The notes under the pieces are model-generated. The model saw only the letters and a list, made by a program, of their open reading frames with translations, had not been told where the DNA came from and ran no database searches. DNA of 47,587 nucleotides from an uncultured Pelagibacteraceae bacterium (GTDB lineage Bacteria; Pseudomonadota; Alphaproteobacteria; Pelagibacterales; AG-422-B15). The stretch covers positions 1 through 47,587 of the forward strand of contig CACDOH010000008.1 in the NCBI GenBank assembly GCA_902554325.1, read 5' to 3'. A program made the position numbers and the translations under genes. This document shows positions 41,898 through 47,587 of this stretch, piece after piece; within the stretch, counting starts at the first letter, position 1, and the number at the start of each line of letters is the position of its first letter.

Positions 41898-43913
41898 ATG
41901 AAAAAACGTGGAAGAAAAAAGAAACAAGTAAAGCAAGTATCAGAAACTAATGCTTCCACAACAATGGAACAAGATGGGCCTGTCTTAGATTTAGAAAAAT
42001 CTATTATAAAGAAGTTAATTAAGCAGGGTAAGAAAGACGGATATTTAACTAATGAATTAATTAAAAAGTCATTTCCAGAGGATAAGTTTTCTTCTGAACA
42101 AATTGAACAATATACAACCAAGTTATCACAAGTTGGATTTGATATTATTGACTCAGATGACTCAGATAATGATGATGATAAAGATGAAGACGCAAGTGGT
42201 ACCAAAACAGGTACAGAAAAAACAGACGACCCAGTAAAACTTTATCTCAGAGAAATGGGTACAGTTGACCTTCTTTCGCGCGAAGGAGAAATAGCTATTG
42301 CTAAAAGAATTGAAGCTGGACAGGAAGCTATGATCTCTGGTTTATGTGAAAGTCCATTAACATTAAAAGCAATCCTTGATTGGAGGGATGATATTGTAGA
42401 GGAAAAAATTACACTCAGGGAAGTTATAGACCTTGAATCTTTATTTGAAGAGTCTCCTAATAAAAAAGAACTTAGTAAAAAAATTAAAGAAGCTAAAAAA
42501 AGAAAAGAGCGTGAGGAAAAGGAAGAGATCAGAAAGCGAAAAGAAGCTGAGAAAAAATCAGCAATTTACGGGGATGACACTGAGCCTATGATAGAAACCT
42601 CTACAGATCAGTCAGTTGAAGAATACGAAGATTCAGATGACGAGTTGAATGTTTCTATTGCTATAATGGAAGAGGAATTAAAGCCCATTATTTTAGAAAC
42701 TTTTAAAAAGTTAAATAAAAGTTTTAAAAAGTTACAAAAGCTTCAACAGGATAAAATCGCATTTCAAGAAAAGGGTAAAGAATTTCCAACAAGATCTGAA
42801 AAGAATTACCAATTATCGAAAATATCTGTTGTTGAATTGATCAAGGGTCTTCAAATTAATACAAGTAAAATTGAGGAATTGATTAATAAGCTATACATAA
42901 TTAATAAAGAAGTTGTGTCACTAGAAGGTAAATTACTTCGCTTAGCTATGCAGTATAAAATCTCGCGAGAAGAGTTCTTGGATAAGTATGTAGGCAATGA
43001 GAATAACCCATACTGGTTAAGAAAAATTACAAGACTTTCGGGATGGGAAAAATTTGTTAAGTTAGAAAAAAATAGTATCAAGAATATTATGAATGAAGTT
43101 AGGGCATCAGCAAGTAACATAGGTTTAACATTAAATGAATTTAAAAGGATTGTTAGCAATGTTCAGAAGGGCGAAAGAGAGTCTAGTATTGCAAAAAAGG
43201 AAATGATTGAAGCTAATCTCAGATTAGTAATCTCAATTGCTAAAAAATACACAAACAGAGGACTTCAGTTTCTAGATCTTATTCAGGAGGGAAATATTGG
43301 ACTTATGAAAGCAGTTGATAAGTTTGAGTATAGAAGAGGATATAAATTTTCAACTTATGCCACATGGTGGATAAGGCAGGCAATTACTCGCTCGATAGCA
43401 GATCAGGCGAGAACTATTAGAATACCTGTTCATATGATCGAAACTATTAATAAAATTGTTAGAACTCAGAGACTTCTACTAAATGATATTGGCCGGGAAC
43501 CTACTCCAGAAGAAATATCTATCAAATTAAACATGCCTCTTGAAAAAGTAAGGAAAGTATTAAAGATTGCAAAAGAACCAGTAAGTCTTGAAACTCCTGT
43601 GGGAGACGAAGAAGACAGTCATTTAGGTGACTTTATACAAGATGACAATGCTGTTATCCCAATTGATGCAGCAATAAATTCCAACTTAAGACAAACAACT
43701 ACTAAGATACTGTCCTCGCTTACTCCTAGAGAAGAACGTGTACTAAGAATGAGGTTTGGGATTGGAATGAATTCAGACCACACTTTAGAAGAAGTTGGTC
43801 AACAATTCTCTGTCACGAGAGAGCGAATTAGACAGATTGAAGCTAAAGCATTACGTAAATTAAAGCATCCTACAAGAGCTAAACAACTCAAGAGCTTTTT
43901 AGATAAAAACTAA
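41898..43913 (+). CDS. rpoD: RNA polymerase primary sigma factor (sigma-70)
   Basis: 671 residues. Region 1.1 ([20 protein letters not shown]) follows a Lys-rich N-terminus. Region 1.2 is [21 protein letters not shown] long charged non-conserved region lies at about residues 150-380. Region 2 has [20 protein letters not shown] and [20 protein letters not shown], region 3 [14 protein letters not shown], and region 4 [17 protein letters not shown] with [20 protein letters not shown]. The order dnaG-rpoD is standard. Regions 2.4 and 4.2 look canonical, so promoters should be of the ordinary TTGACA/TATAAT kind. Confidence 0.97.
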
Positions 43914-43962: not shown

Positions 43963-44039
43963 GGGCCCATAGCTCAGTTGGTTAGAGCCCTCCGCTCATA
44001 ACGGAGTTGTCCTAGGTTCGAGTCCTAGTGGGCCCACCA
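43963..44039 (+). tRNA. tRNA with CAU anticodon, probably tRNA-Ile2 (lysidine type)
   Basis: A 77-nt cloverleaf with encoded CCA. Acceptor GGGCCCA pairs with TGGGCCC, the D-stem GCTC with GAGC, and the anticodon stem CTCCG with CGGAG around loop CTCATAA, anticodon CAT at 43997-43999. The T-stem CTAGG pairs with CCTAG around TTCGAGT. It lacks the C1-A72 mismatch and GGG/CCC anticodon-stem pairs of initiator tRNA. The G1-C72-rich acceptor resembles Ile2 more than elongator Met, but only TilS determinants and comparison can decide. Its 3' 45 bases are repeated at 44781-44825, so it is the target of an insertion. Confidence 0.93.
43995..44039 (+). repeat. Left copy of 45-bp direct repeat (attL-like, within the intact tRNA)
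   Basis: This copy is the tRNA 3' part from the first base of the anticodon loop (C43995) through the CCA. It is identical at all 45 positions to 44781-44825; identity breaks at the flanking base on each side (G versus A before, T versus C after). Tyrosine-recombinase attachment cores in tRNA genes commonly start at the anticodon loop and run to the 3' end. Confidence 0.95.
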
Positions 44040-44058
44040 TTTTTTCTGGAAAAGTTTT

Positions 44059-44742
44059 ATGATTCCAATATTAAAAAAAATAATAATTAATACATTGAAA
44101 ATTATATTGCCGTACTTTTATGCTTACTTAATCTTACGTCGAACTGAAAAAACATTACCTGAGAATTTTATTGCTCACTTAAAAAGACTGCCAAATGATT
44201 CTCTTGCAATCGATCTCGGTGCCAATGTAGGTCTAATTTCACAAATAATGTCTAAATATATTAATCAGGTTCATTCCTTTGAACCTAATATAGAAGCATA
44301 TTCAATATTAAGACGCACGACATTAAACAATAAAAAAATTAAGACATATCCTTTTGCTGCTGGTATAAAAAATAGAATGAGCAAACTTTACCTCCATAAA
44401 GGATCTGATAAATCTAAAGCTGATCTAACTCAGGCTAGTAGTTTATTATTTTCTAAACCAAATATAGATGAAAATATTTTTTATGAAGTTAAGGAAATTG
44501 ATATTGCAGAATTTGTTAAAAGTTTAAATAAAAAAATAGATCTTATTAAGATTGACGTTGAAGGGTATGAAGTAGAAATAATTAATCACTTACTTGATGA
44601 AGTAGATTTCTCACGGATCGGATTTATTTATTGTGAAACACACTCAAGAAATTGGGATGAAAGAAAAATTCCACTTGATCATTTGCGAGATAGAATTGCG
44701 AAGTTAGGCCTTACAGATAAATTTGATTTAAATTGGCACTAA
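44059..44742 (+). CDS. FkbM-family SAM-dependent methyltransferase (islet cargo)
   Basis: 227 residues. The N-terminus has a hydrophobic stretch (residues 4-26, ILKKIIINTLKIILPYFYAY in part), perhaps a membrane-associating helix. Motif I is SLAIDLGANVGLISQIM (residues 48-64), then HSFEPNIEAYSILR (motif II with the acidic ribose-binding Glu) and KIDLIKIDVEGYEVEII (the I-D-V-E-G-x-E signature that defines FkbM proteins, about 156-172), and FIYCETHSRNW. FkbM enzymes O-methylate sugars or secondary metabolites. It is the only gene between the tRNA repeats, with no partner glycosyltransferase nearby. Envelope or LPS glycan methylation is a plausible guess, not shown. Confidence 0.88.
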   Translation: MIPILKKIIINTLKIILPYFYAYLILRRTEKTLPENFIAHLKRLPNDSLAIDLGANVGLISQIMSKYINQVHSFEPNIEAYSILRRTTLNNKKIKTYPFAAGIKNRMSKLYLHKGSDKSKADLTQASSLLFSKPNIDENIFYEVKEIDIAEFVKSLNKKIDLIKIDVEGYEVEIINHLLDEVDFSRIGFIYCETHSRNWDERKIPLDHLRDRIAKLGLTDKFDLNWH

Positions 44743-44780
44743 AAATATATTATTATATAATAGATAATATGGGTAAAATA

Positions 44781-44825
44781 CTCATAACGGAGTTGTCCTA
44801 GGTTCGAGTCCTAGTGGGCCCACCA
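44781..44825 (+). repeat. Right copy of 45-bp direct repeat (attR-like tRNA 3' fragment)
   Basis: An isolated tRNA 3' end (anticodon loop, 3' half of the anticodon stem, variable loop, T-arm, acceptor 3' strand and CCA) with no matching 5' half: the preceding bases, gggtaaaata, bear no resemblance to the tRNA. It cannot make a tRNA. It lies 27 bp from the end of the convergent cfa gene and is probably the displaced original 3' end of the target tRNA. Confidence 0.93.
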
Positions 44826-44852
44826 CTTGTTTAAATTAAAAGCTTTCCCTAC

Positions 44853-46016
44853 CTAGCTTATTGTAAAATGTGAGACGTTTATTCTTTTAGACAGAAAACC
44901 TGCCTTGCAGTACATAAGGTAAAAAGACCAGATTTTTTTAAATCTACCATTAAACCCTAAATTAGAAATTTTTTCCCAATTTGTTAAAAATTGTTCATGC
45001 CATAAATCCAGTGTTTTTGCATAATCCTGCGCAAATGATCTTTTCTTTATCATTGTTAAGTTACAATTATTAGTGATCATTTCTAATTTTTGCTCACTTG
45101 CCATCATTCCTCCCGGGAAAATATAAGATTGAATAAAATCAATATTGTTTTCATAAAAATTAAAATACTTGTTATCAATAGTTATAGTTTGAATTAAAGC
45201 TTTTTTATTTGGCTTTAGAAAACTCTTAATTTTTAAGAAATAGCTTTTCCAGAACTCCTTTCCAACAGCCTCAAACATTTCAATAGAAACTACGGCATCA
45301 AATTTCATATCAAATTCTCGATAATCTTTTTTTATCACATTTGTGTTACTTATATATTTTTTTAATCTTTTTTTTGAGAAATTATATTGTTCATCAGAAA
45401 TAGTAATACCAGTGACATTATACCCCTTAGAAGCAGCATACTCCATAAAACCACCCCATCCGCAACCAATGTCAAGAATATGGTCTCCAAATTTGAGTTC
45501 AAGACTATCAATAATTTTTTGATATTTCATTTCTTGTGCATCAGATAAACTAATTTTTTGATCATCAAATAAAGCCGCTGAATATGTCATTGTTCTGTCA
45601 AGCCACAAACTATAAAAATCGTTTCCAAGATCATAGTGAGCTTGAATATTATTTTTACTTCCTTTAACGGTATTTTTATTTAACGCATGTTTAAGATGAT
45701 AAAACATTTTTAAATACTTTCTTCCGCCTGCAATGGTCTTAATTTCATTAAGATTATGTGAAAAAAATATCATTAATTTTGATATATCTGGAGTTGATAA
45801 ATAATTTTTAAAATAAGATTCTGCTAACCCAATGTCACCTTTAGTTATGCATAGCCAAATTGCTTTCCATGAATGAATTTCTAATTCTGCATAGTCATTA
45901 TCATCTCCATATTTATAAAAGTGTTTATCTGGATAAGTAATCTTTATTGAACCAAAGCTAATCTTTTTGAATGAATTATTAATAATACTTTTAAGTATTT
46001 TATTCAGCATAACCAT
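44853..46016 (-). CDS. cfa: Cyclopropane-fatty-acid-phospholipid synthase family methyltransferase
   Basis: 387 residues. NNIQAHYDLGNDFYSLWLD and TMTYSAALFDD (about residues 122-151) are the CFA synthase motifs before the SAM site HILDIGCGWGGFMEYAASKG (179-198). VSIEMFEAVGKEFWKSYF and FIQSYIFPGGMMAS follow, matching the bicarbonate- and lipid-site regions. It methylates unsaturated acyl chains of membrane phospholipids to cyclopropane or related branched products. It overlaps the DUF1365 gene by 17 bp. ATG at 46016 is used; Met3 at 46010 is an alternative. The exact product (cyclopropane or methylated) cannot be told from sequence. Confidence 0.92.
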   Translation of the reverse strand: MVMLNKILKSIINNSFKKISFGSIKITYPDKHFYKYGDDNDYAELEIHSWKAIWLCITKGDIGLAESYFKNYLSTPDISKLMIFFSHNLNEIKTIAGGRKYLKMFYHLKHALNKNTVKGSKNNIQAHYDLGNDFYSLWLDRTMTYSAALFDDQKISLSDAQEMKYQKIIDSLELKFGDHILDIGCGWGGFMEYAASKGYNVTGITISDEQYNFSKKRLKKYISNTNVIKKDYREFDMKFDAVVSIEMFEAVGKEFWKSYFLKIKSFLKPNKKALIQTITIDNKYFNFYENNIDFIQSYIFPGGMMASEQKLEMITNNCNLTMIKKRSFAQDYAKTLDLWHEQFLTNWEKISNLGFNGRFKKIWSFYLMYCKAGFLSKRINVSHFTIS

Positions 46017-46731
46017 TGCCTTTGTGAGGATAAACCCTGAGCTTTTTCATCCATAATTTGAGCGCTTGAAGATGTATTCTTGGAATTACCATCAATGAAT
46101 TTAATGACAACTTTGCAAAATATATAAAAAAATTTATAGTATTGGTTTTTTTTATCTTACCTTTTAAATTTGTCATTATCTCTAAATTATTATTTTTATT
46201 GAATTGATTTATTTTTATTTCCAAATTAGGCAAGCTTTTTAACATAAATTTATATTTACCAATTTTTTCAGAAAAAGGAGATACATACATAATTTTCGAT
46301 ACATCATACCAATTTGTATTATTAATTATTTTTCCATTATCATGAATATAATATGTCTGTTTTTCTCTAAAAGTGTTTGTAACTTCGGCTATGTAGGCAA
46401 TAATATTATTTTCTATTTTTAAAAACCAAAAGCATACAGGATTGAAAGAATTTTTGAATGAATTGGGCGTTTTCAGTAAATCTATAGATGCACATTTTTT
46501 ATTGATATCATGCTTTTTAATAAAGTTCTGGAACCAATGAATAATATTTTGATTTATAAATGTGGAATTAAAATCATAAGAAAGTGTGAAACTAAGTTCG
46601 TTAAACGCGCCATTTTTAAAATTAAAAACATCTTTGTTATAAATGCTTGTATATTTATAAACAAACTTATGTTTTTTTGGAAATGATCGGTTGTGCAAGA
46701 CAGTCCCATCAAATATATAACTTTTAATCAT
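46000..46731 (-). CDS. DUF1365 family protein
   Basis: 243 residues. SYIFDGTVLHNRSFPKKHKF is the N-terminal family motif (the usual L-Y-x-G-x-V-x-H-x-R), NSFNPVCFWFLKIENNIIAY the central F-N-P-V-S-F-W-F block, and VIPRIHLQALKLWMKKLRVY followed by PHKG the C-terminal I-H-W-Q-A-L-x-L-W-x-K motif. The family has no settled function but occurs next to CFA-type synthases and COG2907 flavoproteins in many proteobacteria, which is exactly the context here. Overlaps with both neighbours (17 and 8 bp) imply a single transcript. Confidence 0.9.
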   Translation of the reverse strand: MIKSYIFDGTVLHNRSFPKKHKFVYKYTSIYNKDVFNFKNGAFNELSFTLSYDFNSTFINQNIIHWFQNFIKKHDINKKCASIDLLKTPNSFKNSFNPVCFWFLKIENNIIAYIAEVTNTFREKQTYYIHDNGKIINNTNWYDVSKIMYVSPFSEKIGKYKFMLKSLPNLEIKINQFNKNNNLEIMTNLKGKIKKTNTINFFIYFAKLSLNSLMVIPRIHLQALKLWMKKLRVYPHKGNGYAE

Positions 46732-47587
46732 TTAAAATATTATTTATTTTCGTACTAACTCTCGCACCCGATTCAAACCCGTCCTCATGAAATCCATATC
46801 CCAAATACGCTCCGGCATAAAAAATATTATTTTTTCCTTGCATCTTTTCTATTCCTATTTGTCCCTTTAAAGTATTTTTAGAAAAAATTATATGTTCATA
46901 ATTAATTCTTTTAAGTACATTTTTTATTTTTAGATCTGAAATATCTCCAACTGTAACAAATAAATTATCTTTGGTGTCCAAGTTTTGAAGACTATTCATC
47001 CAATAAGTCAGATATTTCCTATTCTCAAAATCAAATGAATTCCACGAGCTCCAATTTTCCCTCTTAAGTGGCATTAATTGCTCATCTTGATGAAGAATGA
47101 CATTATTATTAGAATATTGGAAATTGTTCATGACCAAATCTTCTTCTTTGTCTCGGTTAAGTAAAATTTTTTTTATTTGATTAATATTACAGGTAAAGAC
47201 TACATAATCATATTCAACATTAAATTTACTTGAAATTAATTTGATTTTATTTTGTTTTCTTTCAATTTTAATATTTTCTGAAAGATAAATGTTTTTTATA
47301 TTTGAATTAAATATAAACTTTTCTATATATGCCTTACTTCCATTATCTAAAGTAAGCCACTGTGGGCGATTGATTATTTTCGTTAAACCGTGATTTTCAA
47401 AAAAATTTAATAAAGTAGATGCAGGAAATTCAGTAATTTTATTGTTTAGCGTTGACCAAATAGCTGATGCCATTGGAAAAATATATTGATCTGAAAATTG
47501 TTTTGAAAAATTATTTTCTTTTATCCATTCAATGATTGATTTATTTGTATTTTTTTTATTTCTAGCACATTTATTGAATTTCAAAAT
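46724..47587 (-). CDS. FAD-dependent oxidoreductase (amine oxidase-like, COG2907 type), 5' end outside window
   Basis: 288 codons are visible and the frame is open to the window edge; a TTG at 47584 is internal, not a start. The visible part contains FPMASAIWSTLNNKITEFPA, RPQWLTLDNGSKAYIEKF, a long substrate domain, and the C-terminal FAD motif NIFYAGAYLGYGFHEDGFES followed by GARVS, diagnostic of the family (AGAY-x-GYGFHEDG). The N-terminal Rossmann loop lies beyond the window. The partner genes DUF1365 and cfa follow with overlaps. It probably oxidises or desaturates a lipid-linked substrate, which is inference from the cluster. Confidence 0.9.
   Translation of the reverse strand: MLKFNKCARNKKNTNKSIIEWIKENNFSKQFSDQYIFPMASAIWSTLNNKITEFPASTLLNFFENHGLTKIINRPQWLTLDNGSKAYIEKFIFNSNIKNIYLSENIKIERKQNKIKLISSKFNVEYDYVVFTCNINQIKKILLNRDKEEDLVMNNFQYSNNNVILHQDEQLMPLKRENWSSWNSFDFENRKYLTYWMNSLQNLDTKDNLFVTVGDISDLKIKNVLKRINYEHIIFSKNTLKGQIGIEKMQGKNNIFYAGAYLGYGFHEDGFESGARVSTKINNILND

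Follow-up and report, generated by a model that had tools for sequence, protein, structure and literature searches.

Phage satellites, among them PICIs and marine encapsidated satellites, integrate at tRNAs, and the tycheposons of Prochlorococcus, the subject of Hackl et al. in 2023, are reportedly tRNA-flanked cargo elements. As portrayed in the part of PMC10872708 drawn on here, tycheposons span 4–200 kb, and a tyrosine recombinase is characteristic of them. Smaller units have been described as the tRNA-targeted gene cassettes of "additive" flexible genomic islands in Ca. Actinomarinales, which close with a repeat of a tRNA fragment (PMC7771536), and in the Methylophilaceae, where recurring repeats of the last 20 bp of tRNA-Lys suggest tRNA cassettes (PMC10872708). 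Both accounts concern streamlined marine or freshwater bacteria and tRNA targets, and in the portions drawn on here neither names an integrase, resolves the cassettes to single genes, or describes arm sites or a helper (PMC7771536, PMC10872708). tRNA cassettes are already known in marine plankton; what looks new in the units described below is their single-gene scale, their paired variable arms and a candidate family of helper integrases.

SAR11 bacteria rank with the most numerous cells of the ocean and, to our knowledge, few mobile elements are known from them. The window, the whole 47,587-nucleotide stretch of DNA that was analysed (contig CACDOH010000008.1), belongs to a SAR11 genome of 1.17 Mb in 37 contigs that is 79% complete and that we take to fall in GTDB family AG-422-B15, SAR11 subclade II. 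The sigma-70 gene rpoD (positions 41,898–43,913, forward strand; Pfam sigma70 domains) is the conserved upstream neighbour of an intact tRNA gene with the anticodon CAU (43,963–44,039, forward strand; ARAGORN), annotated as tRNA-Met. This gene may instead be tRNA-Ile2, by elimination, because the initiator and another Met-type CAU gene sit elsewhere (three CAU tRNAs were compared). Its last 45 bases (43,995–44,039) recur exactly, on the same strand and without a 5' half, at 44,781–44,825, just where an earlier interpretation made from the letters alone (the sequence-only reading) had placed them; by chance, the window would be expected to hold ~1e-22 further exact copies of a 45-mer. Identity begins at the first base of the seven-nucleotide anticodon loop CTCATAA (43,995–44,001, forward strand), the presumed crossover region, and only this one of the ~33 tRNA genes in the genome has a displaced 3' half. 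As an integration target, the intact tRNA would have had its 3' half regenerated by the insert (attL side), and the copy would be the displaced 3' end of the original tRNA (attR side).

Between tRNA and repeat lies an insert of 741 bp (44,040–44,780, forward strand). Its sole gene encodes a 227-aa FkbM-family SAM methyltransferase (44,059–44,742, forward strand), identified as an ORF and by family profiles (Pfam PF05050, E = 5e-15; NCBIfam TIGR01444, E = 7e-22). No recombinase gene was found in the insert by ORFs and family profiles, in agreement with the sequence-only description of a single FkbM gene and no integrase. The gene starts 19 bp past the CCA of the tRNA and follows a ribosome-site-like motif, GGAAAAG, at about 44,048–44,054; because a usual promoter of its own would not fit in the gap, it is probably read from the tRNA transcript. 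Compared with a tRNA-targeted integrative element, the unit has the 3'-end repeat and the anticodon-loop boundary and lacks an integrase of its own and arms. It shares tRNA-flanked cargo with the tycheposons, as these are portrayed in the part of the source cited above, but is 786 bp long and has no recombinase; it differs from a PICI-like satellite in the absence of integrase, replication and packaging genes, such as are present in the relatives L284 and L286. Beyond the repeat, the first 12 bases of the flank CTTGTTTAAATT... (44,826–44,840) are identical in genome G013, and the flank is unrelated in G004. Directly 3' of the repeat (44,853–47,584) come a gene for a cyclopropane synthase (CMAS), a DUF1365 gene and one more ORF. 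A different pair of genes comes first in G013 and G017, so that the flank past the cassette is variable too.

The same insert occupies the identical tRNA site in genome G004 (which matches AG-917-N15, CACLWE010000016.1). Over the 741 bp the two copies are 98.4% identical, whereas the rpoD genes beside them are only 79–80% identical. Similarity between the two loci begins at the start of the tRNA-CAU, itself 100% identical, and ends at the CCA of the repeat, with both outer flanks unrelated at base level. The FkbM gene is present in 2 of the 43 genus genomes, and no close relative was found elsewhere among 297 order genomes (best other match, 39% aa identity). Judged from these comparisons, the islet is a mobile unit that moved recently between two distantly related lineages, in keeping with recent arrival, one of two options raised from the sequence alone; the contrary outcome considered there, conservation of the gene across the clade with ordinary divergence, did not materialise. 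A second case of transfer is a thioesterase unit that is 97.5% identical over 709 bp in G023 and G073, against 79.7% for rpoD. Related genomes without the FkbM unit exist for the window's tRNA site; neither an excised circle nor a pair of empty and occupied sites within one species was seen among the genomes compared. Most of the named-record genomes are single-cell assemblies, so any individual case could conceivably be a chimera formed at tRNA repeats. In the thioesterase cassette (L053/L132), the 45–56 bp between the CCA and the arm repeat differ completely and the remainder is 97.5% identical; the arm repeat may itself be a recombination point.

Across the genus, 29 units were found at tRNA-Met(CAU), tRNA-Lys(UUU) and tRNA-Ser(GGA), with differing cargo that is usually a single gene, and no integrase gene was found in any of them. 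The repeat starts no more than two bases from the first anticodon-loop base in 22 of the 29, at three tRNAs of unlike sequence. At least 12 of the 43 genus genomes carry units at the window's tRNA-CAU, with two or three repeats in tandem at most, so that other cargo genes with the same tRNA 3'-half ends, as looked for by the earlier interpretation, do occur at this site in genus-mates. An additive island of the Actinomarinales type is defined by gene content that varies at a given tRNA and ends in a repeated tRNA fragment, an arrangement found at the window's unit. Cargo at tRNA-CAU includes a thioesterase, a TylF-type methyltransferase, small lipoprotein-like proteins and surface proteins with signal peptides; at tRNA-Lys(UUU) and tRNA-Ser(GGA), a T5orf172 protein and pilins (N_methyl) are among the cargo. 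A T-stem pair of the tRNA 3' half occurs in two variants: in G023 it is T-A in the tRNA and first repeat and C-G in the outermost repeat, and in G020 it is C-G in the tRNA and T-A in both repeats. Such exchange of T-stem variants along arrays would be expected if an insertion replaces the 3' half.

A surface-like family (322–456 aa, signal peptide, conserved C-terminus that ends in N-M-L-x-M-N, variable N-terminal parts) recurs as cargo in units L041, L053, L061, L071 and L193, at both tRNA-Met and tRNA-Lys, and two tRNA-Ser units (L195 and L199) each hold three to four pilin-like genes in a row with near-identical N-termini. A recurring cargo gene of 342–456 aa, cluster c24, was considered as an integrase and rejected, being signal-peptide-bearing and surface-like with no convincing Pfam match. 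A gene-less unit of 193 bp in G013 (L033:1011–1203) consists of cassette ends only and is perhaps a deletion product between left and right arm repeats.

Arm-type sites flank the attP core of tyrosine integrases in lambda-, L5- and P2-type systems. In most of the units a direct repeat of ~8–9 bp occurs as a pair at a spacing of 11 bp, located roughly 25–75 bp in from the left end; many also have a single matching copy or a matching pair within the right end. Of the 19 tandem repeats at unit ends that were significant, 18 had a period of 11. Repeat types vary among units (GTGCGGGAT, GATCGTCAT, TGCAGTCATT, CTGCAGGCC, TTTGCCGCAC, TTTGGTCAC and others, with GTGCGGGATCT also among the arm pairs beside TGCAGTCATT and GATCGTCAT), and left and right types agree within a unit (permutation P = 0.0005, n = 17; P = 0.007, n = 6). 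By analogy, these paired end repeats have the layout of putative arm-type integrase sites. Matched arms of 11-bp period, together with a size of 0.2–1.9 kb for most units and the start at the anticodon loop, set the SAR11 units apart from those of the Actinomarinales and Methylophilaceae, as far as the latter are characterised in the portions of the sources drawn on above. No arm-type pair was found in the window and G004 copies of the FkbM unit, nor a hidden pair inside it (best tandem P = 0.8). Because it lacks the repeats that most of the class has, its route of movement can be proposed only indirectly.

Genomes of the genus have two tyrosine recombinases each, and the search of the window genome (79% complete) that had been recommended did yield two, both of them XerC/XerD-like. 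Seventeen of 397 order genomes encode a member of a candidate helper family of tyrosine integrases; none of the 43 genus genomes does. At 12 of 14 loci the stretch that separates the tRNA fragment from the start of the integrase has 11 as its best tandem period (binomial P ~1e-9). In G038, of the sister family, a 5.1-kb element sits at another CAU tRNA with the integrase directly after the tRNA and a closing repeat at q31–77. In G062, of the window's own family, a 6.6-kb integrase element at tRNA-Lys(UUU) uses q32–76, the 45-bp core of the Lys cassettes; a TGACGTCC pair lies at its left end with more copies at the right, and the left block resembles that of the Lys cassettes. The integrase elements L284, L286 and L287 (5.6–6.6 kb) have the same repeat and arm anatomy as the cassettes. 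Pfam, run on L284 and L286, identified an AAA_25 replicase-like protein in both and Terminase_2 (terminase small subunit) in L286, and L287 encodes a large AAA_25-type replicase by resemblance; from this gene content the three are likely to be SAR11 phage satellites.

Larger integrase-bearing islands at tRNA 3' halves, of the kind that the sequence-only reading advised looking for, are present in sister taxa; within the genus no candidate-family integrase with a 3'-half core was found at the window's own tRNA. An integrase with arms identical to those of a cassette was not found among these elements. Searches of IMG/VR with the Met core (exact and relaxed), the Ser core, the Lys core, the integrase and the FkbM gene returned nothing related, and the GTGCGGGAT arm pair gave five matches with no visible cassette context, four of them GC-rich contigs. 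In phage records the tRNA matches were 79–84% identical and resembled phage tRNA genes; no attP was recognised.

The cassettes are most simply taken to be non-autonomous partners of such integrase-bearing elements, and for the window's islet we assign a probability of about 0.62 to its being a non-autonomous integrative cassette moved by a tyrosine integrase acting in trans. A cassette would combine its cargo, a single gene or a few, with a copied tRNA 3' half, and the integrase would be supplied by another element, either an integrase-encoding island or a phage-satellite-like element. Recombination of the cassette's tRNA copy with the chromosomal tRNA would take place inside the anticodon loop, presumably from a circular intermediate, with the incoming 3' half restoring the tRNA and the old one shifted to the far end; repeated insertions would give rise to tandem arrays. 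Because the cassette is enzyme-less and recently moved, an enzyme borrowed from another mobile element probably inserted the window's gene. The idea of a cassette mobilised in trans, already raised from the sequence, holds well for the class, which has the G004 twin, other cargo and other tRNAs to support it. For the arm-less FkbM unit a helper integrase is a somewhat better than even proposition, on the premise that it followed the same route; it may have been moved by a different integrase or by arm-independent recombination, or else by homologous recombination at the tRNA.

In this last alternative, RecA-type exchanges in the 5' part of the tRNA and in the 45-bp 3' half would have brought in the FkbM unit without any site-specific enzyme. 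The missing arm repeats fit such a route, and the tRNA, being 100% identical in the window genome and G004, offers a short homologous stretch at either side; competence genes and DNA uptake have also been noted in SAR11 (PMC7542561). The available homology is only ~32 and 45 bp, however, and homologous recombination does not predict that repeat starts cluster at loop base 1 in three tRNAs, nor the integrase-type arms on most sister units, which leaves it an unlikely explanation. The XerC and XerD proteins of the host come into consideration as the sole tyrosine recombinases found in the window genome. They would have had to recombine cores that are three different tRNA halves, whereas Xer acts on dif-like sites, and they are conserved while arm types change from unit to unit. 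Paired arms of period 11 are a feature of arm-binding integrases and are not used by Xer, and we regard this option as highly improbable.

The islet could also be the terminal remnant of a larger island whose integrase was lost by deletion, the other branch of the sequence-only reading. Integrase-bearing elements of 5–6.6 kb in sister taxa do use tRNA 3' halves, and the gene-less G013 unit resembles a deletion product. Against this, the 741-bp unit has both ends in two lineages that are ~80% identical in rpoD, so that the small unit itself travelled, in its present form, and any deletion was earlier; moreover, 29 independent small units with unlike cargo would each need the same type of deletion. 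That branch is accordingly weakened, and a remnant appears improbable. An old tandem duplication of the tRNA fragment together with a resident gene is conceivable insofar as tRNA fragments can be duplicated, but it has virtually no prospect of being correct, because a 98.4% identical insert stands on an ~80% rpoD background between unrelated flanks, the downstream ones included, and the gene occurs in only 2 of the 43 genus genomes.

If a helper-driven cassette is accepted, the nearest functional likeness is to integron cassettes, which likewise carry single genes, form tandem arrays, enter at one point, depend on a recombinase in trans and may take their promoter from the entry locus. The SAR11 core differs in being a tRNA half and not attC, and no integron integrase (IntI) was found in the window genome (79% complete), only the XerC/D-like proteins. 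As a tentative extension, for which the odds are somewhat below even, single genes in SAR11 may circulate as cassettes through essential tRNA genes, in an economy that resembles that of integrons. Integrase-less attP cassettes would carry at each end a paired 11-bp "address" of variable type, which integrases arriving transiently on satellites or islands would recognise through their arm-binding domain, and cassette and helper would be matched by address and not by target tRNA.

Mechanisms of gene exchange in SAR11 have been described as unknown (PMC7542561), and the SAR11 literature searched, whose coverage was incomplete and whose silence is weak evidence, contained no such cassettes; the cases found there were a prophage at tRNA-Val and a tRNA-associated O-chain island that had been relocated. 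Because the unit is exactly delimited, enters at a fixed point and has a candidate integrase as helper, it becomes directly testable how single genes related to the cell surface (methyltransferases, pilins, secreted proteins) are exchanged. Cassette exchange would explain variation in phage-exposed traits in streamlined genomes without recombinases of their own.

Elements of other layouts were also observed at tRNA genes. Apart from one unrelated element in G007, no integrase was found in the genus. That element (L141:3270–9180, ~5.9 kb) lies at tRNA-Gly(GCC), is closed by a 5'-half repeat (q1–37) and encodes a 439-aa integrase-like protein, a 193-aa recombinase and a rolling-circle-type replication protein (PF23343); its genes suggest an integrative element of SAR11 that resembles a plasmid or a satellite. 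The element was considered as a helper and rejected on account of the 5'-half repeat and of ends without the cassettes' arm types. G042 and G043 of the sister family (L256 and L257) bear, at the CAU tRNA that follows rpoD, islands of the opposite layout, in which the 5' half (q1–40) was left behind. Their cargo comprises two DNA cytosine methyltransferase genes and, in L256, also a probable HNH-type nuclease gene, that is, restriction-modification cargo.
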